In this document: in pieces, positions 10,984 to 38,942 of the stretch
Numbering within the stretch: the stretch's first letter is position 1
Layout: the number at the start of each line of letters is the position of its first letter
Virus record (IMG/VR): IMGVR_UViG_3300042691_025766
Span: 1-39,925 of that record
Strand: one strand, 5' to 3'
Length of the DNA stretch: 39,925 bases
Source of the DNA: a virus
Made by a program: the position numbers and the translations under genes
The notes under the pieces: generated by a model
What the model saw: the letters and a program-made list of their open reading frames with translations, nothing else
Database searches by the model: none
Told to the model about the DNA's origin: nothing

Positions 10984-11247
10984 TTAAAGTGTTGCTAAAA
11001 TAGCACTATCATCCATTAAATAAAAAGATTCTCCATCTTTTTCTACTAAAGTTCCCCACTCATGCACTCTAAATGCAGTCATACCCTTTTGTAATCTCAT
11101 TGGCCTTTCTTTTGTCCCAGGCCCTACTTCTACAATCAATCCTTTGTCAGAATCTTTCAAATAACTTTCTGGTAAAAATAAGCCACCTTGAGTTACTTTG
11201 TTGTCATTAATTGGTTTAAATAAAATCTGATTTTTAATTGGTTTCAT
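10984..11247 (-). CDS. Phage co-chaperonin, GroES (Cpn10) family
   Basis: 87 aa, close to the length of bacterial GroES (about 95). It aligns over its whole length: KPIKNQILFKP (first strand), mobile loop NDNKVTQGGLFLPE with the Gly-Gly plus hydrophobic tripeptide that binds GroEL, KGLIVEVGPG (G-x-V-x-x-V-G-x-G motif), QKGMTAFRVHEWGT and the closing FYLMDDSAILATL. T4 gp31 is the known precedent of a phage co-chaperonin that helps GroEL fold the capsid protein. The gene lies between two connector/ring genes, so it probably serves virion assembly with the host GroEL. ATG at 11247. Confidence 0.85.
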   Translation of the reverse strand: MKPIKNQILFKPINDNKVTQGGLFLPESYLKDSDKGLIVEVGPGTKERPMRLQKGMTAFRVHEWGTLVEKDGESFYLMDDSAILATL

Positions 11248-13683: not shown

Positions 13684-15114
13684 TTAGCTAGCTTGAACGA
13701 TAACGAACTGGTTTGCTGCACATACACGAGTACCACGGTAAGTGATAGTTTCGATGTTGTCAGTCATTGTTCCAGATGTTGGGTTCTGAGAAGCACCACC
13801 CCATTGCCATACACGGATAGCGTTACCAACAGTTCCGCCTTTTGGAGGAGCTTGGTACATAACTGTGATGTTTTTGTAAGCTTTAGTTACATCTTTTGCA
13901 TCGCGAGTTTCACCTTGAGGGCAAATGATACCGAAGTTACGGAAGTAGTCATTCACAGGAGTAAGACCAGTAGTCATCTCTGTATTGAATTGCTTGTACT
14001 TCTTAACTTTAAACATATAACCATCAATTCTCAAAGTATCTACTCCGTAGTTGATAGCAGCATCTTCTGATTTTTCGTTCTTACCCCAAACGTAAGCACC
14101 GGCTGGGAATTCTTTGAACAAACCGTCAGAGAAGTTTTGACGCTGATAGATATCTTGCAACCACATATTTTCATTGGCGCAACCATTGATATCCATGATA
14201 CGAGTGATTTCATGCAACTTAGCAATATCCAAAGTACCAGGAGTATATCCTATTGTTTCGCCATCAGAAAGAACTTTAGGGATGATACCTTCAGAACCTA
14301 CAGATGAACTTGTAGACAATCCTGTGTTGTTTACGATATTACCACGCATGAGTTTGAACTCTACGTTATTAATGAAACGCTGGTTGCTCTTTACGAGGCC
14401 TTTGTAAGTGAAGTAGCTAGTGCCAGCTTGTGCGCCACCTGCCATTTCCATTCCAGATACGCCAGTATTGTAGAACACTTCTGTCATTTCAGCCAAGTCT
14501 GTAGCAGACCATGACTCTCTCATTTCAGTAATGTTGTTATCATACTTTTGATCCAAGTGGATAAGAGGGTTGATGCTTGTAGAAGCTTCACCAGCATCCA
14601 TATCACCGCCAAGAAGCAATACATCAGTAGCAAGGAAGCTTCCTGAACCAGCAGAAGCCAAAGACTGAGTAGAGATTTTTGGACGAACTGTGAATGTAAA
14701 TGCAAAAGCAGTAGTGCCTGTAATTGCAAGGATTTCACCTTCTACGTTTGTAGAGGCAACACGAACAGTTTCACCAGCACGGAGCGGAGATTCTGTACCG
14801 CTATTGTAATGATCGCCAGAAGCCAAAGTAAGAGTGATAGTAGCACCAGCAGAAGCGGCAACATTGCCAGCAGACTGAATACCAACCATCAATTTACCAC
14901 GGTTCTCGAACCAAAAATAGTTACGGTTTTTAACTTCTTCCATTCCACCATAGGTAGCAAGCCACCAAGTGAAATCTTCGTTACCGTATTTTTCAACGTA
15001 CTGCTTGTAGTACTGAGGAGTCAGCAATTGAAGATCAGAGATCAACTGCCTATTTGCATACTGGGCGGCAATTGCACCCGGTTGCAAAATGTTTGAGGTA
15101 GGAATTCCTGCCAT
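13684..15114 (-). CDS. Major capsid protein (HK97-fold type)
   Basis: 476 aa. N-terminus MAGIPTSNILQPGAIAAQY; middle Gly/Ala/Thr-rich strands (ASAGATITLTLASGD), a segment with YFTYKGLVKSNQRFINNVEF, and a C-terminal region with WQWGGASQNP and RGTRVCAANQFVIVQ. It follows a Gln/Glu-rich scaffold-like gene and portal, the standard order. Its codon choice is clearly richer in G and C at third positions than its neighbours (many GAC, TAC, AAC, GGT), a sign of selection for high expression. The hairpins after its stop would help set dosage. Capsid identity rests on position, size and composition; the fold was not computed. Confidence 0.8.
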   Translation of the reverse strand: MAGIPTSNILQPGAIAAQYANRQLISDLQLLTPQYYKQYVEKYGNEDFTWWLATYGGMEEVKNRNYFWFENRGKLMVGIQSAGNVAASAGATITLTLASGDHYNSGTESPLRAGETVRVASTNVEGEILAITGTTAFAFTFTVRPKISTQSLASAGSGSFLATDVLLLGGDMDAGEASTSINPLIHLDQKYDNNITEMRESWSATDLAEMTEVFYNTGVSGMEMAGGAQAGTSYFTYKGLVKSNQRFINNVEFKLMRGNIVNNTGLSTSSSVGSEGIIPKVLSDGETIGYTPGTLDIAKLHEITRIMDINGCANENMWLQDIYQRQNFSDGLFKEFPAGAYVWGKNEKSEDAAINYGVDTLRIDGYMFKVKKYKQFNTEMTTGLTPVNDYFRNFGIICPQGETRDAKDVTKAYKNITVMYQAPPKGGTVGNAIRVWQWGGASQNPTSGTMTDNIETITYRGTRVCAANQFVIVQAS

Positions 15115-16718: not shown

Positions 16719-17465
16719 TTTTTATATTTTTTTCCAGTAATAACCATACCTAATTTTATTAAATTTAATACCAGTACTTAAATTACCAGTATTGCCATTT
16801 ACGAATAACGCAGCTTCAGCAATACTATTGAATTCTTTAAATAATTTTTCATTTTTATATGCTGCTACTTTTTTCATTAATTTTTTAACAGCTTTTTCTC
16901 TACTTTCTTTAGTATGAAAATGAGAACATCCTCTTTTTTTAGCAGCAATAGACATATTTAATTTTGATAAAACAGAATGCTTCCTTCCTGTATTACTTTC
17001 AAACGCTTTTCTTACCGCTTTTTTTGAATTTTCTATTAATAAAGGATTTTTTTTAAATTTATACTTACTTTTTATTGATATTTTTAATTTAGTTTCTTCA
17101 GAATGATAAAAAGCATTGTTTTCAACTTTTGCAATATTATAATCTGGGGTAAATATAGATATTAATTTTTTTTCTCTTTCAAGTAATTTATTATAATCAA
17201 TGCAATTTTCTAAAACTTGAAAATAAAAATTATTTTCACCATATAAATTCCATGCATTTTGCAAATGTTGATTAGGATGTTTATTGTGTCTTAATCGGCT
17301 TTTGTGCGATGCTAATCTATTTTTTAAATTTCTTGAACTGCCTATATATTCCTCGTTAGTAATTTCATTAAATATTTGATATACACCACAATTATTGAAT
17401 ACTTTTTTTAATTTTTGTTTTTCAATAAAAAAATTTTCATCAATAATTTCTGGTGTAAGTGCCAT
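16695..17465 (-). repeat. 24-nt imperfect direct repeat at the starts of the endonuclease gene and the next gene
   Basis: Starts at 17465 and 16718 read ATGgcACTTAcaCCAGAAATTATT and the same with at/ac at the lower-case pairs, in pieces: identical ATG, ACTTA and CCAGAAATTATT blocks, 20 of 24 bases equal. The encoded openings are MALTPEII and MILNPEII. The copies occupy 17442-17465 and 16695-16718 and flank the endonuclease gene. Confidence 0.85.
16722..17465 (-). CDS. GIY-YIG homing endonuclease with NUMOD repeats
   Basis: 247 aa from ATG 17465, 2 nt after the previous stop; a TTG 9 nt earlier is less likely. GIY-YIG domain: GVYQIF (about 27-32), EEYIGSSRNLKNRLASHKSR with the catalytic Arg near 50, and the metal-binding Glu in FQVLENC (about 86). 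Next come NUMOD3-type DNA-binding segments (SEETKLKISIKSK; GRKHSVLSKLNMSIAAKKRG) and a C-terminal NUMOD1-like segment (FKEFNSIAEAALF ... GYYWKKI). Such enzymes spread by cutting alleles that lack them. It lies free-standing inside the head gene block, is more A/T-rich and Lys-rich than its neighbours, and so looks like a recent invader. Confidence 0.92.
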   Translation of the reverse strand: MALTPEIIDENFFIEKQKLKKVFNNCGVYQIFNEITNEEYIGSSRNLKNRLASHKSRLRHNKHPNQHLQNAWNLYGENNFYFQVLENCIDYNKLLEREKKLISIFTPDYNIAKVENNAFYHSEETKLKISIKSKYKFKKNPLLIENSKKAVRKAFESNTGRKHSVLSKLNMSIAAKKRGCSHFHTKESREKAVKKLMKKVAAYKNEKLFKEFNSIAEAALFVNGNTGNLSTGIKFNKIRYGYYWKKI

Positions 17466-17467
17466 TA

Positions 17468-17839
17468 TTAACAAATTTTATGGAAGTGAACTAATACTCT
17501 TGTTGCTGCTGCACTTGCTCCACCAAACTTTACAAAGTTGGCCACATGATCAACTCTATACAATCCAGCGGTAGATACAGCACTAACGTAAGTAACGGTA
17601 GTTTGACTTAATTGCTGGGCTACTGCTGTTTGGAAGTTTGTTGCAGTTAATGAACTTCCCGAAAATGTAGATGGCGCACTTGACGCTGGCTCTCCATTAT
17701 CGTTTGTAGCAGTTACGCTGACTGTTCCCGATGGACTTACGAATTGCCAAATTGCATAATCCCAATTTGACAAATCTATAACATAGCCATTTCCTGCATT
17801 GAATTCGGCAGTTACATCTTGGGTTAAACTTAATGCCAT
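17468..17839 (-). CDS. Small beta-rich head protein (possible decoration or fibre base)
   Basis: 123 aa. It starts MALSLTQDVTAEFNAGNGYV and is rich in Thr, Ser, Ala and Val, with alternating strands (YAIWQFVSPSGTVSVTATND; GLYRVDHVANFVKFGGASAA). The pattern fits a small beta-sandwich. It lies between the portal and scaffold genes together with another small beta-rich protein, where head decoration or head fibre proteins are often coded. The family is not recognised. ATG at 17839; stop 2 nt before the endonuclease ATG. Confidence 0.6.
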   Translation of the reverse strand: MALSLTQDVTAEFNAGNGYVIDLSNWDYAIWQFVSPSGTVSVTATNDNGEPASSAPSTFSGSSLTATNFQTAVAQQLSQTTVTYVSAVSTAGLYRVDHVANFVKFGGASAAATRVLVHFHKIC

Positions 17840-23923: not shown

Positions 23924-24730
23924 TTATAGTGTAAATATAATGTATTTTGCGTCTTTTGGCGAAATCCCAACTAATAATTCTGATTTTAAAGTTTTTTTGG
24001 TCAAAATTGGATCTATTGCTATTATTTCTTCTCTTTCGTTTATTTCGTTTTCAAAATGTCTACATCTTATAATTCTTTCTTCATAACCGTTATTACCCAT
24101 AAATATAACTTCATAATCACAAGCTTTCAAAGTATGTACAACCTTACCTTTTAATTCTCCTGATGTTATATACAGAACATTTTTTATTTGCTTTGGCTCT
24201 ATACCAACAATCGGGCCTTTGTATGGTTCAAACACCCTAAAAGCCGTTACATATCCTTTTAATGGTTGCCATTCGCCTTCATTGTCTTTCCAAAGATAAC
24301 ATTGTTCTTCTGGTATAGAATAATATTTTACGTCTGAATCATCTTCAATAAAACTGTAAATCTTGTTAGATTCATTAATAGCATTAGGATGAATTAATAT
24401 TTCAACTCCGCTGGGAATTTGATCTGAACTGATAACAACTGCATTTACTGGCTCTGTTTCTCGCCTGTTTAAATTATTAAACTGCCTGCCTATATATATT
24501 TTTTGTCCACTACCAAAAGTGTGAGAATTTTTACCCTCTAAATTTATTGATATTATAACCTTACCGTAGACATTTTTTAACCCTACTTGCTCTTTTAGCT
24601 TTTTTTGATTTATCTCTTCAAGTCTTTTTTGATTTTTTAGCAATTTCTTTTGCTTGTCTTTTTCAATTTGATTAATTTCTCTTTTAGATAATTCTTTTTT
24701 TTCAATGAAATCAAAGTACTTTTTATTCAT
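23924..24730 (-). CDS. Protein with tentative GroES-like beta-barrel segments, 268 aa
   Basis: An N-terminal Lys-rich coiled coil (about 1-50) is followed by two beta-rich halves. Half 1: VNAVVISSDQIPSGVEILIH then YYSIPEEQCYLWK, which resembles the GroES order (G-x-V-x-x-V..., VGDxVLFH, closing strand). Half 2: GKVVHTLKACDYEVIFMG then EREEIIAIDP has a similar rhythm. Between them KGYVTAFRVFE recalls QKGMTAFRVHE in this phage's own GroES. The likeness is by eye and could be chance among beta-barrels. It lies between the glycosyltransferase cassette and the packaging genes. Possible role: a chaperone-like or virion protein. Confidence 0.6.
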   Translation of the reverse strand: MNKKYFDFIEKKELSKREINQIEKDKQKKLLKNQKRLEEINQKKLKEQVGLKNVYGKVIISINLEGKNSHTFGSGQKIYIGRQFNNLNRRETEPVNAVVISSDQIPSGVEILIHPNAINESNKIYSFIEDDSDVKYYSIPEEQCYLWKDNEGEWQPLKGYVTAFRVFEPYKGPIVGIEPKQIKNVLYITSGELKGKVVHTLKACDYEVIFMGNNGYEERIIRCRHFENEINEREEIIAIDPILTKKTLKSELLVGISPKDAKYIIFTL

Positions 24731-24736
24731 ATTTTA

Positions 24737-25498
24737 TTATTTATATACTCTTTTTTTAGCCCAATCTTTAATTAATTCAGGTAAAGGTTCGTCTATTGGT
24801 TTTAAATCTTCTTTAGGATTAAACCATCTATCTGGTTCAAAATAATCAATACCATCTAGCTTTTTATCATAATCTAACTTAAATACATCTCTTTGAATAT
24901 GTATTGCCTTGTCTTTCATTATTTTTCTATCCCTAACAAAGCCCATATGATATATTCTTATATCGTGAATATACTTAATGCTGACATTTGGTACACCTAG
25001 ACTTTCGGCATCATCAACGCTTCTGTAATTTGTTTTTGCCAAACGAATTATTTCTGTAGAGCAAGGCTTTCTATTTTGAGGGACGCTTAATTGCAAATAT
25101 GGACTTTTCCATAAATTAATTCTACTGACCATAAATCCATTATCGTTTTCTTTTATTGCTTTCTTAATAAAAGAATAACTTTTTTCATGAACTATTTCAT
25201 CGGCTTGAAGATTAAAATTCCACTCATAACCATCTTTTTGAGCTTGATCTATAGCTATATTGGTAAAATAATTCAATTTCTCTTTGCCTATTTGAGAATC
25301 CCATTCTTTTTTATCCCTTAAAATAAGAGTCAAATTATCTTGTCCTATTGAAACTATTTCGTCTATAGTCCCATCTTCAGAACCAGCATCTACAACATAA
25401 ACATGGTCGCAAAATTCCAATAATGACTTTATGCTTTCTTTGAAATTATAGTCATACCTAACTCCATTATAAACAAACAATGTACCCGCTAATTTCAT
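24737..25498 (-). CDS. Family 2-like glycosyltransferase (GT-A fold)
   Basis: 253 aa. The start is typical of GT2: strand KLAGTLFVYNG, then DHVYVVDAGSEDGTIDEI (nucleotide-sugar loop, about 31-48), and NFNLQADEIVHE (about 94-105) in the place of the DxD metal motif, here with DE. The C-terminal region holds KYIHDIRIYHMGF, as in GT2 enzymes with a His-rich acceptor side. The enzyme would transfer a sugar from a nucleotide donor to an unknown acceptor in the cytoplasm. It overlaps the methyltransferase by 4 nt and belongs to the 28.5-24.7 kb cassette. Confidence 0.85.
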   Translation of the reverse strand: MKLAGTLFVYNGVRYDYNFKESIKSLLEFCDHVYVVDAGSEDGTIDEIVSIGQDNLTLILRDKKEWDSQIGKEKLNYFTNIAIDQAQKDGYEWNFNLQADEIVHEKSYSFIKKAIKENDNGFMVSRINLWKSPYLQLSVPQNRKPCSTEIIRLAKTNYRSVDDAESLGVPNVSIKYIHDIRIYHMGFVRDRKIMKDKAIHIQRDVFKLDYDKKLDGIDYFEPDRWFNPKEDLKPIDEPLPELIKDWAKKRVYK

Positions 25499-26091
25499 AA
25501 AAGATGTTTTAGTTCATTTGATACTCTTTCAAAATCATTTTCTAAATTTTCACAAGTCCAAAAAAAGAAAGCCCCAAGACCGTTTTCGGCTAATGTCGGA
25601 TGCCATTTAGGAAAAGTTAAAAAAGCCCATTTGCCTGGCATCATTTTTTCTAATTTTTCTGGAGTCCATTCTGATTTATGAGAATCTGGATTATTATCAT
25701 TAGAGTCTGTTGTCATTAGGTATTCTCCCAATGGCGTAAACCAAATTTGCTTATTAGCAATCTTTGATGTTAAGTCAACAAAATTAAGCGCATCTTTTTC
25801 TCTAAAATGTTCTATGGTATCTGTGCTTATTGATACATCAAACCTTTGGTTAAATTTTTTAGCTGATTTTAGATACTCAATCACATCCATTACTATTAAC
25901 TCGCCTCCGCCAATAAGCTCTCTGTCTACACAATCTACATGAGTCTTTTCTTTAAAAATTATTCTTCCGGTTTGTGGTGCATTTCCGCAAGCCAAATCAA
26001 TCATTTTTTGATTTTCGCAATCCCCGCAAATAGCTTTTAAAACTTCTATTTGAAGTTCGCCACTACCATTTTGATTAAATATCAGTTCCAT
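25495..26091 (-). CDS. SAM-dependent class I methyltransferase
   Basis: 198 aa. Motif I is KMIDLACGNAPQTG (about 29-42), with an acidic residue after strand 2 (VDCVDRE, about 56) and a post-motif FDVSISTDTIEHF where class I small-molecule enzymes carry the D-x-I/L-E-H segment. The Leu/Phe-rich C-terminal half likely forms the substrate lid (AENGLGAFFFWTCE). Its overlap of 17 nt with the DUF5672-GT9 gene and 4 nt with the GT2 gene suggests it modifies the same glycan or its sugar. Substrate unknown. Confidence 0.8.
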   Translation of the reverse strand: MELIFNQNGSGELQIEVLKAICGDCENQKMIDLACGNAPQTGRIIFKEKTHVDCVDRELIGGGELIVMDVIEYLKSAKKFNQRFDVSISTDTIEHFREKDALNFVDLTSKIANKQIWFTPLGEYLMTTDSNDNNPDSHKSEWTPEKLEKMMPGKWAFLTFPKWHPTLAENGLGAFFFWTCENLENDFERVSNELKHLL

Positions 26092-27502
26092 TTAATTTTG
26101 GTTTATGTAAATTATTAATTGCTTCTATAACTTGCTCTGTTTCGGCTATACAGCATGGAGGATAATCTTTGTCTATCACACAGTCTTTACCTACTGTAGT
26201 TCCTAGAGTTGAATGATAACAATGCTGATAAATACATGGTTGTTGAATTATTTCAAGGCCATTTGTATCTGGATGCACATATTCTGGGTTAACGCTACCA
26301 AAAAATCCTACACATGGTTTATTATATGCCATTGCTATATTTAAAGGCCCGCTATCAATTCCTAAAAATATATCACAACCGGCAATTACAAATTTAAGGA
26401 ATCCCAATGAAGATGTGTTTATTTCAATGCCTATACTTTCGTGATTTTCTTTTCCTATTTGAACTACTAAATATCCATATGCTTCTAAATGCTTTTTTAC
26501 TGCTTTCCAATTTACCCCATAAATATTTCTATGCGGAATATTTTTTTGGTCTATATGAATAACAGCATATTTTTTAAAAAGCTTTGTTTTTTCATCAATT
26601 AATGGAAATAATGTAGGCCTAGTAAGTTTATAATCTTTTATACCACAAAATTCAAAATAACTTTTTAATCTATTTTGCTTAGGTTTTACCTCGTAAGCGA
26701 AATCTAAATTAAATTCTTTTTCTGGGATTATTCGTTCTCTATCAAATTGAGATATATGAGTAACTGGGAAATAATGCTTGTTAAATAATTCAAAGAACTC
26801 CAATGGTGTATCTAAAACAACATTATAGCCTTTAGTTATAAAGTACCTCATAATAGGTTCTACCAATATAACATCACCAATTGCTGCTGTTCTTTTTATT
26901 AATACCGTAGGCTTGTATGGTTGATGAAAATGACCATGAAAGCCAAATGTAGGCTGATTCGGCTGCCTTAGTTCATAAGCAAATGATTCTGCAAGTTTTC
27001 CAGGAGCAAACTTTATTCCATATTTTTTTTCAAGATAAGGTCTGTATAATCTACATATCGCATCATCTTCTGGATGCAAATTAGAAATTTCTGGATCTAT
27101 TGCAAGTATATCGAGCAGTTTCTTTGACCTCAAGCTAAAACCGCCGTTACCCACATTTCTTCCATCAGAATAAAGCCAAGGAGCGCCAATATAATCATAT
27201 TCTAAAAATTCTTCGTCCCAAGCTTTTTCATTTAAGACATATCCATCCCATTGAATAAGTAAACAATATGGTGTTTGTACATATTTATAAAGCTCTTTAA
27301 TACAGAACTCACTATATTCTTCTTTTGATTTTATCGAATCAATTAATATCGTTTTAATGCCATCAACCTCAATATCAATGTCTGTTAAAAAAATAGCCTC
27401 TTCGAACTTAATCTTTTCTGTACTTTTTTGTAACGCGGATATAGCTTTGCCGTAATTATAACAATCAATGCAGACTATTGTTACGTCCAATAAATTTCTC
27501 AT
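26075..27502 (-). CDS. Two-domain glycosyltransferase: DUF5672-like domain fused to GT9 (heptosyltransferase-like)
   Basis: 475 aa. Residues about 1-195 fit a DUF5672-type domain: LLIQWDGYVLN, YDYIGAPW, GNGGFSLRSKKLL and HPEDDAICRLYRPYLEK. From about 200 a GT9 domain follows: VLIKRTAAIGDVILVEPIMR (the GDxxxxxP loop of ADP-heptose transferases) and the donor-binding end DIFLGIDSGPLNIAMAYNKP then VGFFGSVNPEYVHP. Both halves are putative sugar transferases, so the protein may add two sugars in turn. It overlaps the small 76-aa gene by 38 nt and the methyltransferase gene by 17 nt. Domain names are from memory of the families. Confidence 0.85.
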   Translation of the reverse strand: MRNLLDVTIVCIDCYNYGKAISALQKSTEKIKFEEAIFLTDIDIEVDGIKTILIDSIKSKEEYSEFCIKELYKYVQTPYCLLIQWDGYVLNEKAWDEEFLEYDYIGAPWLYSDGRNVGNGGFSLRSKKLLDILAIDPEISNLHPEDDAICRLYRPYLEKKYGIKFAPGKLAESFAYELRQPNQPTFGFHGHFHQPYKPTVLIKRTAAIGDVILVEPIMRYFITKGYNVVLDTPLEFFELFNKHYFPVTHISQFDRERIIPEKEFNLDFAYEVKPKQNRLKSYFEFCGIKDYKLTRPTLFPLIDEKTKLFKKYAVIHIDQKNIPHRNIYGVNWKAVKKHLEAYGYLVVQIGKENHESIGIEINTSSLGFLKFVIAGCDIFLGIDSGPLNIAMAYNKPCVGFFGSVNPEYVHPDTNGLEIIQQPCIYQHCYHSTLGTTVGKDCVIDKDYPPCCIAETEQVIEAINNLHKPKLNGTDI

Positions 27503-27695
27503 CTTTATTTATTTTGTAGGTTTGATTATTCCAAATTCTTATTTGGTCTGTAGTGAAATGTTTGACTTGGCCGCCATTCATTAAAATACAGGTTACTTCA
27601 TCATTTTCTAAAAACCCATTAGGTTTTATATACCAAACATATGCGTCCCCCAGTGGAGTTGTGCAAGATATTGGGTTTTTTATTTCATGTATCAT
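27465..27695 (-). CDS. 76-aa phage protein in the glycosyltransferase cassette
   Basis: IHEIKNPISCTTPLGDAYVWYIKPNG followed by NDEVTCILMNGGQVKHFTTDQIRIW (given in parts: DAYVWYIKPNG; HFTTDQIRI). This small beta-rich pattern recurs in phages of this type, without known function. It overlaps the upstream GT-B gene by 4 nt and the downstream gene by 38 nt, so it is co-translated with the glycosyltransferases. Partner or regulator of them is a guess. Confidence 0.7.
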   Translation of the reverse strand: MIHEIKNPISCTTPLGDAYVWYIKPNGFLENDEVTCILMNGGQVKHFTTDQIRIWNNQTYKINKDEKFIGRNNSLH

Positions 27696-28495
27696 TTATT
27701 AAAGTGCTTAAAGGCGAAATATTCTAAAGCCTTTTGATTATAAAAAGAATACCCATTAGCTCCAGTAGGGAATGTATTCGGGAATTGAGGGCAAAGTTCA
27801 AGGATTCTTGGAAGCTTCATGGCATCAGCTAAGTGCCACAAAAAACTTTGATTATAAAATCCGCCCTTGTACAAAATCATTTCACTTGCTAAATCCAAAA
27901 AATTATTAGACTCAAAGTATTCAATATGTAACTTATAGGTTTCGCAGAACAATTCATATTCTGATTTAGCGCCCATAAAAATTAATCTATCTCCGAAATG
28001 CTTTAAAAAATAATAATTTATATAGGCATTATTATAGCGTTGAGTTCTATTTACTATTATTTTATCTACGCAATTTATTTTTCTTCTTGGCACATCTATC
28101 CATTTCTCAGACAAATCACAACTCATTTCAGGGAATACAGAAAAAGCATAATGATGTATAAGGCCGGCTGGCATAGGTATCATTCTACTATCTCTAGTTA
28201 AATCAATATTAAAGTCTATATCTTGACCTTCAAATATCTCAAAACTATCTATATATTCTTGGTATTCAATTAATGGCTTTAGTCTATTAAACATCTCAAG
28301 ATTCATACAAACTTGAGTGCCTTCTTGATCTACTATAGGGCTTACTGCGCCTTGATAATAAAAAGCTGGCATATTAATGACTTGGCAAACTTTTACTTTT
28401 TTGCCAAAAGCTTTATAAAGTTGCCTTAATCCAGCCATTAGCACAATAAGATCGCCCGCATTGTAACTATGCTTTATGGTAATTTTATCATTCAT
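27692..28495 (-). CDS. GT9-like glycosyltransferase (GT-B type)
   Basis: I choose ATG 28495 (MNDKITIKHSYNAGDLIVLM); a TTG 39 nt upstream would lie in the divergent promoter region. 267 aa. The loop SYNAGDLIVLMAGLRQLYKA resembles the GD-x(4)-P/A opening of GT9 and other GT-B sugar transferases; the C-terminal half has YKGGFYNQSFLWHLADAMKL, where GT9 has its donor pocket (GxxSxxxHLAxAM). Last gene of the cassette reading upstream. It is divergent from the rightward 79-aa gene. Assignment to GT9 is likely but not certain. Confidence 0.7.
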   Translation of the reverse strand: MNDKITIKHSYNAGDLIVLMAGLRQLYKAFGKKVKVCQVINMPAFYYQGAVSPIVDQEGTQVCMNLEMFNRLKPLIEYQEYIDSFEIFEGQDIDFNIDLTRDSRMIPMPAGLIHHYAFSVFPEMSCDLSEKWIDVPRRKINCVDKIIVNRTQRYNNAYINYYFLKHFGDRLIFMGAKSEYELFCETYKLHIEYFESNNFLDLASEMILYKGGFYNQSFLWHLADAMKLPRILELCPQFPNTFPTGANGYSFYNQKALEYFAFKHFNK

Positions 28496-28523
28496 TTTGT
28501 TTTGTAAAATTATATTATATTTG
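28495..28523 (+). promoter_or_regulatory. Promoter of the isolated rightward gene, TTTTG-N16-TATATTTG
   Basis: TTTTG at 28495-28499, 16 nt, then TATATTTG at 28516-28523 matches the Bacteroidota -33/-7 promoter and has the same spacing as the 20.8-kb promoter on the other strand. The start codon follows 39 nt after the -7 box. Confidence 0.7.
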
Positions 28524-28562: not shown

Positions 28563-28802
28563 ATGGCACAAGCAATGTTCGCAGTTTCAATTTATGGTGC
28601 AAACCAAAATGATTGGAACAATTCAAATGGTGTTACTATGGGGTTCTCTCCAACACAAGTTGTTTTGCGTAATTTGCCAGATCAACCTAGTTATTCTGGG
28701 GTGACTTGCAAAACCGCTATTCAATTGTTGCCAACAGCACCAAGTCCAATCCAGCCGGTTTATTACACCGCAAAAACTGTTGCTGAAATCATAGCTCTTT
28801 AA
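28563..28802 (+). CDS. 79-aa rightward moron-type gene, unknown small protein
   Basis: ATG at 28563 in a short A-rich leader. Sequence MAQAMFAVSIYGANQNDWNN ... CKTAIQLLPTAP and YYTAKTVAEIIAL; no membrane segment and few charged residues. It seems to be a small beta-type protein. It is the only gene between 33 kb and the left end that reads rightward, with its own promoter 40 nt upstream and a strong terminator 24 nt after the stop. Its codon use looks stronger than its neighbours (GGT, GTT, CCA, AAC). Possible roles: highly expressed head decoration or host-takeover peptide. Not recognised with confidence. Confidence 0.75.
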   Translation: MAQAMFAVSIYGANQNDWNNSNGVTMGFSPTQVVLRNLPDQPSYSGVTCKTAIQLLPTAPSPIQPVYYTAKTVAEIIAL

Positions 28803-28825
28803 GCATTGATTCAAATCTAGTTTAG

Positions 28826-28846
28826 CCCCCAGAAATGGGGGTTTTT
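28826..28846 (+). terminator. Strong intrinsic terminator of the rightward gene
   Basis: CCCCC (28826-28830), a 6-nt loop AGAAAT, GGGGG (28837-28841) and TTTTT (28842-28846). This is a perfect 5-bp GC stem plus U tract in the plus-strand direction. In the minus direction it lacks a U tract. Confidence 0.92.
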
Positions 28847-37339: not shown

Positions 37340-37351
37340 GACATTTTTAGT

Positions 37352-37418
37352 AGTCAGGAGCAGTTCTGAGCTGCATCTCCCATACCAATATGGGGCTCTA
37401 ACCTTGAGCTATCCTGAC
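37352..37418 (-). tRNA. Compact tRNA-like element (anticodon unclear)
   Basis: 66-67 nt on the minus strand. Acceptor GTCAGGA/TCCTGAC (7 bp), TA, D-arm GCTC-AAGGTTA-GAGC with the classical TAGCTCA...AGAGC context, a central CCCAT/ATGGG stem with 6-nt loop ATTGGT instead of seven, a 3-4-nt variable part and a T-arm stem of only 4 bp (GCAG/CTGC). Canonical tRNAs have about 72 nt, so several nucleotides are missing. The loop would suggest Pro (TGG) or Gln (TTG). Working or decayed tRNA cannot be told by eye. Confidence 0.55.
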
Positions 37419-37550
37419 TAAATTGGTCTTTTCCTTACCCCTTACTACCCACATGTGCCAGTCTGACGTTACCTTCAGATGCTTACTATGTTCATCTAGA
37501 GTGGATGGTACATTATACACTTCCTTTGCAGTTTTGTCAGTGAGAACCAT
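37398..37550 (-). CDS. 50-aa small ORF between the tRNA-like elements (tentative)
   Basis: ATG 37550, TAG 37398. MVLTDKTAKEVYNVPSTLDE then VTSDWHMWVVRGKEKTNLVR. Its G+C content looks higher than that of the neighbours and its amino-acid use is ordinary for a coding frame, but the 3' end overlaps the tRNA-like element by 21 nt. It might be a small gene of foreign origin or chance. Confidence 0.35.
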   Translation of the reverse strand: MVLTDKTAKEVYNVPSTLDEHSKHLKVTSDWHMWVVRGKEKTNLVRIAQG

Positions 37551-38297: not shown

Positions 38298-38942
38298 TTA
38301 AAATAATTCAGTTTGATTAATATTTTGCTTGTGTATTATATTCCTTGCTACATCGAAAATAGTTTTACCGGCTTGGTAATCAACAAGATTTCTTGCTATT
38401 TTTATCATACTTTGTTCACCTTTATATGATGATATTTCAATTTTATGAAATTCACACAATCTTTTTAATTCATTTGTTCCAGCACCAATCTGAATTCTTC
38501 TATCATTTAATTCATTTGGTAATTTGAAATTTGTCCAATATAAATGTCTACCTCTTTTTTGTGCTGATATTAATGGCTCATAATATGGTATTACATTTTC
38601 AACCACATATTTTCCATTCCTATAATAATGCTGTAGAAATAATATTTCTTCATATAATTTCATATCTGGGTAAACAGGCTCTGTTGTAGTATCGTAATTT
38701 GAGCTATTCCAATACCTTGCTCTTGAGTGAGTTGGGCATGGCGGACTGCTCCATATAAAATCAAATTCCTTGTAATGGTCTAAAAGATATTGATGTGCAT
38801 CTGCAATAATCACCACATCATTTGGGAATCTTTCTTGATACAATCTTGCAAGCTCGGGGTCTAACTCAACAGCAGTTACTTTGCAATTATTCCACAAATA
38901 ACGATTTCCACCAAGACAAGCGTATAAATTTAATACATTCAT
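38298..38942 (-). CDS. C5-cytosine DNA methyltransferase (small Dcm-type)
   Basis: 214 aa. Order of C5-MTase motifs: NLYACLGGNRYLW (motif I, about 5-17), TAVELDPELARLYQERF (II), FIWSSPPCPTHSRARYW (motif IV, catalytic Cys about 69), YVVENVIPYY (motif VI, ENV about 115-117), GRHLYWTNF (motif VIII). The target-recognition domain is short, so this is a compact version compared with typical 300-400-aa enzymes, as in some phages. It would methylate phage DNA (restriction evasion). A small membrane protein precedes it by 12 nt. No cognate endonuclease is seen. Confidence 0.85.
   Translation of the reverse strand: MNVLNLYACLGGNRYLWNNCKVTAVELDPELARLYQERFPNDVVIIADAHQYLLDHYKEFDFIWSSPPCPTHSRARYWNSSNYDTTTEPVYPDMKLYEEILFLQHYYRNGKYVVENVIPYYEPLISAQKRGRHLYWTNFKLPNELNDRRIQIGAGTNELKRLCEFHKIEISSYKGEQSMIKIARNLVDYQAGKTIFDVARNIIHKQNINQTELF

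Follow-up and report, generated by a model that had tools for sequence, protein, structure and literature searches.

The window, by which we mean the whole 39,925-nucleotide stretch of viral DNA that was analysed, carries on its minus strand a cassette of transferase genes in the order GT9L, a 76-aa orphan gene, a DUF5672+GT9 fusion, a methyltransferase and a GT2-type enzyme, followed by a GroES-like gene and, further on, the terminase. The host of the virus is probably a member of the Bacteroidota. The features of the locus are as follows.

28824..28843, plus strand: intrinsic terminator, a hairpin immediately behind SMALL with a T run after it
28563..28802, plus strand: SMALL, a 79-aa orphan divergent from the cassette (family A7, 26 members)
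28516..28523, plus strand: TAnnTTTG motif, 47 nt before the SMALL start
27692..28495, minus strand: GT9L, 267 aa, predicted GT9 fold, no Pfam match; heads the operon
27465..27695, minus strand: orphan gene of 76 aa that lies within the operon
26075..27502, minus strand: DUF5672+GT9 fusion, 475 aa (DUF5672 at about 26936-27340, GT9 Pfam core at about 26240-26410)
25495..26091, minus strand: methyltransferase, diverged class I SAM-dependent type, by profile similarity
24737..25498, minus strand: GT2-type glycosyltransferase, by GT2 profile matches in family members
23924..24730, minus strand: GroES-like gene, the next operon gene after GT2, by family profile comparison
13684..15114, minus strand: major capsid protein, assigned from its place, its conservation and a 'virion structural' PHROG match; the codon-usage reference

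Neighbouring frames of the cassette overlap, in order, by 4, 38, 17 and 4 nt. An operon of four overlapping transferase genes had been proposed for this locus, and all four frames, together with the 76-aa frame, are present on the minus strand as listed. The proposed placement between the replication and packaging modules was likewise borne out, with the cassette sitting between the primase and terminase genes. No donor-synthesis gene was found within the window's operon, and a megablast comparison with isolates found nothing. Gene pairs formed with a few close relatives give dN/dS values of 0.04-0.22 where these are computable, many synonymous distances being near saturation, and indicate purifying selection.

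Both halves of the fusion score above the Pfam cut-off (DUF5672, E = 4.7e-19; GT9, E = 1.7e-7 and 31.3 bits, the cut-off being 22), and its GD and DSG motifs are invariant in all eight aligned members. D(S/T)G is the donor motif of GT9. At the position of the fusion's GT9 DSG motif GT9L carries NQS, and because of this replacement its donor, and even its activity, is uncertain. The model of GT9L has a GT9-type GT-B fold (pLDDT 91.9), which matches 3tov (Z 16.7 over 233 residues), WaaF (16.4), WaaC (16.1) and TibC (15.5). Since GT9L gave no Pfam match at E 0.1 and has NQS at the motif place, we describe the predicted enzyme as GT9-like and do not class it as GT9. Searches of PHROG and NCBIfam at E 0.1 likewise returned no match, a profile comparison with the fusion was not significant and no bacterial relatives were found in genome contigs scanned with two short peptide patterns. 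Chains of the plant NDH complex also match the GT9L model, with Z 13.8-15.0.

The window's methyltransferase has no Pfam match, and one of five family members gives a weak one (E = 0.054). A 16-member profile of the family matches the c14 family, which occupies the same gene slot (hhalign probability 91.5, E = 8.4e-7) and a member of which matches Pfam Methyltransf_23 at 1e-10; the profile did not match two other methyltransferase families, and a smaller comparison was not significant. GT2 models are matched at E <= 0.1 by three of the eight aligned members of the GT2-type family (best E = 2.3e-8), among them the window protein with E = 0.0045, which is below the cut-off. The ADE of a QADE stretch is invariant in all eight, and a profile comparison between two GT2 families was not significant. 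The GroES-like protein has no Pfam match; its family profile matches annotated GroES genes directly before the terminase in Panino (E = 4.7e-9) and elemoE (E = 5.6e-5) and a like-placed gene of MW202828 (E = 2.5e-7), with no match to the like-placed gene of phi18:3.

The original prediction drew attention to a small conserved gene within the cassette. The 76-aa gene is indeed conserved and embedded, but a key role in the cassette is rejected because relatives occur elsewhere and without a cassette: they lie away from it in L057-L062 and are present in the cassette-less L098-L101, some as weak matches (E = 2e-4 to 6e-13). It looks like a passenger and is not peculiar to the cassette. The informative small gene at this locus is SMALL, just outside the interval that had been singled out.

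To place these genes in context we compared 47 loci and the window, a set collected by searching for the cassette. Loci with the DUF5672 part only (L068-L090) or with distant GT9L matches (L024-L032) were left out, and the counts refer to loci unless clusters are named, near-copies such as L042/L043/L064 and L099-L101 included. The fusion is present in 41 of the 48 loci of this cassette-selected set, and at least one methyltransferase-type gene accompanies it in 38 of those 41. It lies on the same strand as the terminase in 32/32 loci showing both, 2.3-5.6 kb apart, and is opposite to the primase gene in only 10 of 21. Variants of the cassette have an added GT17+methyltransferase fusion, other methyltransferases or other GT2 genes.

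GT9L and SMALL stand next to each other in divergent, head-to-head orientation in 34 of the 38 loci, or in 24 of 27 clusters when a 90% identity level is applied. Where the other cassette genes have moved, GT9L has mostly stayed next to SMALL, the exceptions being L021, L041 and L044. The pair is kept with the remaining genes on its other side (L053, L055, L057-L062), with these genes 1.8 kb away and on a different strand (L052) or with none of them seen (L014, L015); the record of L014, a 19-kb fragment, holds GT9L and SMALL without the fusion. SMALL is also carried by L098-L101, where the four records, three of them 11-18 kb fragments, showed no fusion or GT2 gene and the four loci showed no GT9L. 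The pairing may therefore be partly shared synteny, since SMALL occurs in L098-L101 and, in L041 and L044, stands a long way from the cassette. These loci also rule out SMALL as a gene found only with the cassette.

SMALL apparently represents a virion-like family that has had no annotation until now. No PHROG match was found for 10/10 members, no Pfam match above the cut-off and no NCBIfam match. It is under purifying selection (dN/dS 0.10-0.13), and its fold model has a pLDDT of 83.5. A 324-aa protein of the virion module begins with two SMALL-like domains, and the C-terminal module of this protein recurs behind other N-termini and is widely swapped. The SMALL profile was found in 25/25 distinct uncultured-virus records, most of which had contributed to it and which include the cassette-less L100, and in none of four related isolates. 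A tblastn search of 50,697 phage records with two family members other than the window's found no isolate with SMALL.

Sequence signs of high expression accompany this gene. Within the window, none of 19,843 equally long stretches from 35 other genes matches the capsid-like codon use of SMALL, the reference being the major capsid protein, for which a 'virion structural' PHROG match was obtained in 20/20 records. In 15 of 17 records (L044, L020 and L056 of the 20 were left out, and kinship is ignored) SMALL takes first place for capsid-like codon use in a comparison of 16-26 neighbouring genes. In some records the signal is weak, being reached by 2-4% of background stretches in L033, L035, L039, L054 and L067 and by 8-10% in L055 and L052. 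The terminator hairpin behind SMALL has a folding energy of -14 kcal/mol (z -2.95). Terminators stand behind 26 of 42 SMALL genes, a count in which the distance limit of the scan missed the window's own, and behind 12 of 1002 other ORFs, which are mechanical frames and not proven genes; by a count of the same kind, few SMALL genes are preceded by the complete two-part promoter pattern (5/42 versus 52/1002), and kinship is ignored in both. The TAnnTTTG before SMALL, which we take to be the Bacteroidota -7 promoter motif, is not enriched across the window (72 found, 65.5 expected).

From these signs, its low charge and the SMALL-like domains of the virion-module protein, we take SMALL to be probably an abundant surface protein of the virion, of the decoration type. 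We considered whether it might instead be a DNA-binding regulator of the RemA or FlbD kind, for which the structure matches are weak. RemA is the sole PDB chain with Z >= 5 (Z 5.3, 54 residues), Foldseek gave no PDB match at E 0.001, and its viral matches named FlbD (E = 0.25-0.62) rank below unnamed ones at 0.11 and 0.20. Charged residues average 8.2% in the 26 members, compared with 26.5% for other ORFs 60-120 aa long (n = 424), and DNA binding is disfavoured because only 8% of the residues are charged. Threonine-rich tails on SMALL are confined to the cassette-less L098-L101, and such a tail is thus ruled out as the glycan site in the phage of the window.

The idea of a cassette that builds and methylates a glycan is supported by these data. 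As to its target, originally left between virion, phage DNA and host surface, we lean towards the phage particle, whichever the acceptor. The virion is the best of the three because the fusion and terminase share a strand wherever both are seen, a co-chaperonin-type gene is a neighbour and a virion-like gene lies head-to-head with the operon; the set most likely decorates the particle since it adjoins a small, apparently abundant virion-like protein. The operon would then be a soluble, probably late-expressed pathway, its product a short O-methylated glycan on the particle. In the host cytoplasm GT9L would probably place the first sugar on a protein of the virion, after which both the fusion and the GT2 enzyme would lengthen the glycan and the methyltransferase would methylate it, in an order of steps that we infer, with sugar donors supplied by the host. 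SMALL, as a putative small and abundant surface protein, is our leading candidate for the acceptor.

A rather unlikely alternative is that the transferases and methyltransferase alter the lipopolysaccharide core or another surface glycan of the host during infection, with SMALL a mere neighbour; the purpose, equally doubtful, would be to block superinfection or to spare new virions from the receptor. GT9 is the classic heptosyltransferase family of the lipopolysaccharide core, on which soluble GT9 and GT2 enzymes can act. WaaC and WaaF are among the closest folds of GT9L, the best NCBIfam matches of the fusion's GT9 half are lipopolysaccharide heptosyltransferases, all far below the cut-off, and SMALL exists where no cassette was found. 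Against this, the cassette is oriented like the packaging genes, a timing that would presumably be too late to exclude other phages, and GT9L has in most rearranged loci kept its place next to SMALL. Furthermore, a GtrA-type flippase (PF04138) was found in 0/16 related records, which are of 46-77 kb, possibly fragments, and do not include the window, itself a fragment; the control was positive in 7/14. The same 16 records bear on DNA hypermodification, in which sugars would be placed on a hydroxymethylated base and then methylated. Phage glycosyltransferases that hypermodify DNA with diverse glycans have been reported (Pyle et al., 2024, as cited in an excerpt of PMC12619734), but we judge this target very improbable because thymidylate synthase/dCMP hydroxymethylase (PF00303) was found in 0/16, with a control positive in 9/14 genomes. 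Tet/JBP was also found in 0/16, in a search without a positive control.

If the particle is the target, SMALL competes with the capsid or another structural protein as the glycosylated component. With one of the latter as acceptor, SMALL would be a core gene beside a site permissive for insertions, and its head-to-head arrangement with GT9L would reflect a shared promoter region, a possibility that we hold with some doubt and whose probability forms part of that given to the particle as a whole. The presence of SMALL in every uncultured-virus record searched, the cassette-less L100 included, is in keeping with a core gene, with the proviso that most of these records helped to build the profile, and mycobacteriophage glycans are reported to sit on capsid and tail-tube subunits (PMC12619734). 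On the other hand, L014 has GT9L and SMALL without the fusion and in L052 the pair is separated from the other genes, which suggests that the two are linked more tightly than by common position. We also put forward, tentatively, a glycoprotein system with SMALL as carrier and GT9L as committed initiator, in which the other genes are exchangeable and write different methylated glycans.

Were SMALL such a carrier, the small protein shared by these phages would bear a different glycan coat in different lineages, as a shield or receptor mimic. Such a system would be compact and cytoplasmic, would cap its glycoproteins with methyl groups and would give a reason for the repeated swapping of sugar genes beside the packaging genes of such phages. 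The GT9L-SMALL pair, head-to-head across many uncultured phages whose hosts are probably Bacteroidota, offers a specific, testable acceptor. We know of no case in which the genome points to one acceptor. Available excerpts of the literature describe few demonstrated cases of phage virion glycosylation (PMC11256854; PMC12619734; PMC13313380; PMC10568470). In a literature search under broad terms the cassette was absent among the matches listed, and SMALL had no name to search by.

Several known systems invite comparison. WaaC and WaaF, the GT9 heptosyltransferases of lipopolysaccharide, have the fold predicted for GT9L, and the fusion retains the GT9 Pfam core; in contrast, GT9L has NQS for D(S/T)G and the fusion stays far below the NCBIfam heptosyltransferase cut-offs. 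The GT9L model also aligns with TibC, a bacterial autotransporter heptosyltransferase (Z 15.5, 225-227 residues), a likeness of fold at 10-11% identity, with WaaC, WaaF and 3tov as close or closer. TibC is reported to glycosylate proteins (PMC4358343). Autotransporter heptosyltransferases are dodecameric, iron-containing enzymes of protein O-heptosylation, whereas the candidate acceptor here is no autotransporter. Among the papers searched, one names DUF5672; it deals with effectors secreted by Streptococcus suis. Eight isolate or single-virus records, five of them Synechococcus phages, match the fusion's N-terminal part, as do many bacteria; in the bacterial matches (best 80 of 260) the alignment extends little, if at all, beyond DUF5672; among the matches listed, the full fusion occurs only in viral contigs.

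The glycosylation of mycobacteriophage virions (Che8 and relatives) was reportedly described by Freeman and colleagues in 2023. As excerpts of later accounts describe it, that system likewise has phage-encoded glycosyltransferases and glycans on structural proteins (PMC11256854; PMC12619734; PMC13313380; PMC10568470). Phage-encoded glycosyltransferases are found here too, in the fusion, the predicted GT9L fold and the GT2 family matches. Set side by side by their descriptions, the systems would differ in host phylum, and here a small orphan protein, encoded separately and head-to-head with the gene of a GT9-fold enzyme, is the candidate acceptor. We regard the cassette as a probable variant of known phage glycosylation.

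The genes discussed here are as follows.

23924-24730, minus strand, 268-residue GroES-like protein
24737-25498, minus strand, GT2 protein
25495-26091, minus strand, methyltransferase
26075-27502, minus strand, 475-residue fusion of DUF5672 and GT9 (the fusion)
27465-27695, minus strand, 76-residue orphan
27692-28495, minus strand, 267-residue GT9-fold protein (GT9L)
28563-28802, plus strand, upstream of GT9L, 79-residue orphan (SMALL)

Read from 28495 to 24737, the five cassette frames overlap by 4, 38, 17 and 4 nt; the GroES-like gene starts 6 nt beyond them and is separated from the terminase by two further genes. The cassette is flanked by primase/helicase genes on one side and, on the other, by the genes for terminase, portal and virion proteins. 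The terminase of this 39,925-base virus record shares 26-29% identity with those of the 20 records listed (87 were found); nearly all of these are flavobacteria phages, which points to a probable host in the Bacteroidota. Elsewhere in the window, the virion genes upstream of the capsid gene include a GIY-YIG gene (16722-17474; Pfam E 1.3e-10), and a frame that by eye looks similar directly follows the capsid gene of a related record (L218:2607-3548). There is also a 214-residue frame (38298-38942) whose match to a cytosine-C5 DNA methylase profile (E 1.2e-7) covers only positions 1-79 of 324, and a tRNA-like structure for which ARAGORN gives an undetermined anticodon (37350-37419).

Pfam recognizes DUF5672 and GT9 in the fusion and matches the GT2 protein weakly; it gave zero matches for the window methyltransferase, the 76-residue protein and GT9L, and little was gained from PHROGs for the cassette proteins. 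The AlphaFold model of GT9L (pLDDT 91.9) has as its best folds 3tov, a GT9 (Z 16.7), WaaF (16.4), WaaC (16.1) and TibC (15.5), with plant NDH-complex chains lower (13.8-15.0) and then epimerases (about 10). GT9L keeps the N-terminal GD of GT9 but has NQS at the place of the DSG of the fusion. A 16-member methyltransferase profile matches a Pfam-recognized methyltransferase family, c14 (E 8.4e-7), and neither of two others; a comparison using fewer sequences was not significant. Genes of c14 often occupy the same cassette slot, and the single one scanned matches Methyltransf_23. Of eight GT2 family members, three reach E <= 0.1 against Pfam GT2 models, the best at 2.3e-8.

The GroES-like gene is so called because its family profile matches phage GroES genes, namely those immediately upstream of the terminase in Panino and elemoE; it also matches a like-placed gene of MW202828, and there was no match to the GroES of phi18:3. 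In L040 a GroEL gene lies two genes ahead of the GroES-like gene. The window has two co-chaperonin-type genes, a clear Cpn10 among the virion genes (10984-11247; Pfam E 8.3e-12) and this diverged one ahead of the terminase.

Scanning viral records with the window fusion protein, a GT9L alignment and a fusion alignment gave 7, 24 and 58 loci, respectively. The detailed set of 48 loci (47 and the window) was gathered by cassette scans, so that its counts are no measure of prevalence: the fusion occurs in 41, GT9L in 38, GT2 in 27 and the methyltransferase family in 18. In 38 of the 41 loci the fusion is accompanied by one or more methyltransferase-type genes, as assigned by cluster with one scanned representative each, and in 27 of 41 by a GT2-type gene. 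The middle of the cassette is freely exchanged, with a GT17-methyltransferase fusion, other methyltransferases or another GT2 family in its place. The fusion and terminase share a strand in all 32 loci having both, 2.3-5.6 kb apart (median 3.1), and the fusion lies on the strand opposite the primase in 10 of 21. In the best 80 of 260 bacterial matches to the fusion, the DUF5672 part or little more is aligned.

SMALL is divergent from and directly upstream of GT9L in 34 of 38 GT9L loci (24 of 27 clusters at 90% identity); in the other four it is downstream and convergent (L021), elsewhere in the record (L041, L044) or cut off (L043). The pair lies behind the remaining cassette in eight loci (L053, L055, L057-L062) and 1.8 kb from it in L052; the remaining cassette was not seen in L014, a fragmentary record, or at the L015 locus. 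In L054, L065 and L111, with no GT9L in the locus, SMALL is divergent from the fusion instead. The reverse search from SMALL gave 22 loci, including eight new contigs, of which three have it divergent from GT9L (L110, L114, L116) and one from the fusion (L111). The other four (L098-L101) carry two tandem copies in the same place, between the GroES-like gene and replication genes, and a cassette was looked for there and not found. All 25 distinct uncultured-virus records searched with the SMALL profile contain the gene, most of them having been used in building the profile; it was found in none of four related isolates. From its pairing with GT9L, its occurrence in loci with no cassette found and its presence in these 25 records, SMALL looks like a core gene of this group of phages, one that usually has the cassette attached to it.

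SMALL is under purifying selection, with dN/dS 0.10-0.13, and Tyr11 is the sole invariant residue among 26 aligned sequences. For the ten members scanned, PHROGs had no match at E 10 and Pfam none above the cut-off (one weak match, E 0.034); NCBIfam had none for the window protein. The predicted model has a beta-rich fold and a helix at the C-terminus, and weakly resembles RemA/FlbD-type proteins. Between L035:6688-6927 and L036:6704-6943 the pS of SMALL is 0.10 and that of the adjacent GT9L genes 0.70, which suggests recent exchange of SMALL, with strong codon bias as an alternative cause.

We think that SMALL is an abundant virion protein because of its low charge, capsid-like codons, terminator and the SMALL-like domains of a protein in the related record G010. 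Charged residues average 8.2% (26 members, range 3-16%) versus 26.5% in 424 similar-sized ORFs, 1.9% of which are at or below that mean. In codon use the window copy is nearer to the capsid gene (13684-15114) than are all 19,843 equal-length windows of 35 other genes. In each of 17 related records SMALL was ranked by codon use among the 16-26 neighbouring genes compared: it takes first place in 15, second place in L067 and fourth place in L055, and when windows are compared L052 and L055 show a weak signal. With close relatives included in all counts, 26 of 42 copies have an intrinsic terminator behind them (versus 12 of 1002 other ORFs) and 19 of 42 have TAnnTTTG in front (versus 128 of 1002), but the full two-part promoter pattern stands before only 5 of 42 (versus 52 of 1002). 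TAnnTTTG is not enriched in the window as a whole.

The G010 gene (L218:5185-6159), among those after the capsid gene, encodes 324 residues beginning with two SMALL-like domains (profile E 2.3e-5, probability 76), the first matched by HMM at 1.8e-6 and the second read mainly by eye. Its last ~174 residues recur at 69-100% identity in the best 80 of 147 loci (L221-L300), preceded by a SMALL-like domain in four of these 80; the 14 N-termini examined among them otherwise differ, one bearing a collagen-like and one a Ser/Gly/Thr repeat. This C-terminal module resembles a mobile unit for surface display, and we infer that proteins of the G010 type may pair an anchor domain with a surface module that can be exchanged. 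One of the two tandem SMALL copies in L098:6705-7025, L099:2080-2433, L100:7640-7966 and L101:3271-3606 bears a Thr-rich C-terminal tail, the length of which varies between these closely related phages. In L100 a protein after the portal gene likewise ends in a Thr-rich tail, as does its counterpart in L098.

Since soluble glycosyltransferases and methyltransferases are encoded on the packaging-gene strand, head-to-head with a virion-like gene, we lean towards the cassette glycosylating the phage particle. SMALL would be the leading candidate acceptor, and GT9L mostly stays beside it when other cassette genes move; this proposal is tentative, holding about half of the probability given to particle glycosylation. 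The rest falls to a glycosylated virion in which the capsid or another structural protein, not SMALL, would be the acceptor, a reading that is also doubtful when taken singly. Two findings speak against SMALL as the acceptor: its presence where no cassette was found, and the restriction of its Thr-rich form to L098-L101, where none was found.

Modification of phage DNA is disfavoured because a hydroxymethylase-type gene was found in none of 16 related records; a Tet/JBP search of related records found none and, having had no positive control, says little. No GtrA-type host-surface system was found in the 16 related records, but the soluble cassette enzymes may modify LPS.

Our literature search on this combination of genes found no paper among the matches listed. 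For glycosylation of the particle, the nearest described kind is the virion glycosylation of mycobacteriophages (Freeman et al. 2023, as cited elsewhere). The nearest enzyme precedent for the GT9L fold working on a protein is TibC (PMC4358343). Set beside these, the window combination is a variant, in which a GT9-fold enzyme stands by an orphan, apparently abundant protein, together with a DUF5672-GT9 fusion and exchangeable methyltransferases.
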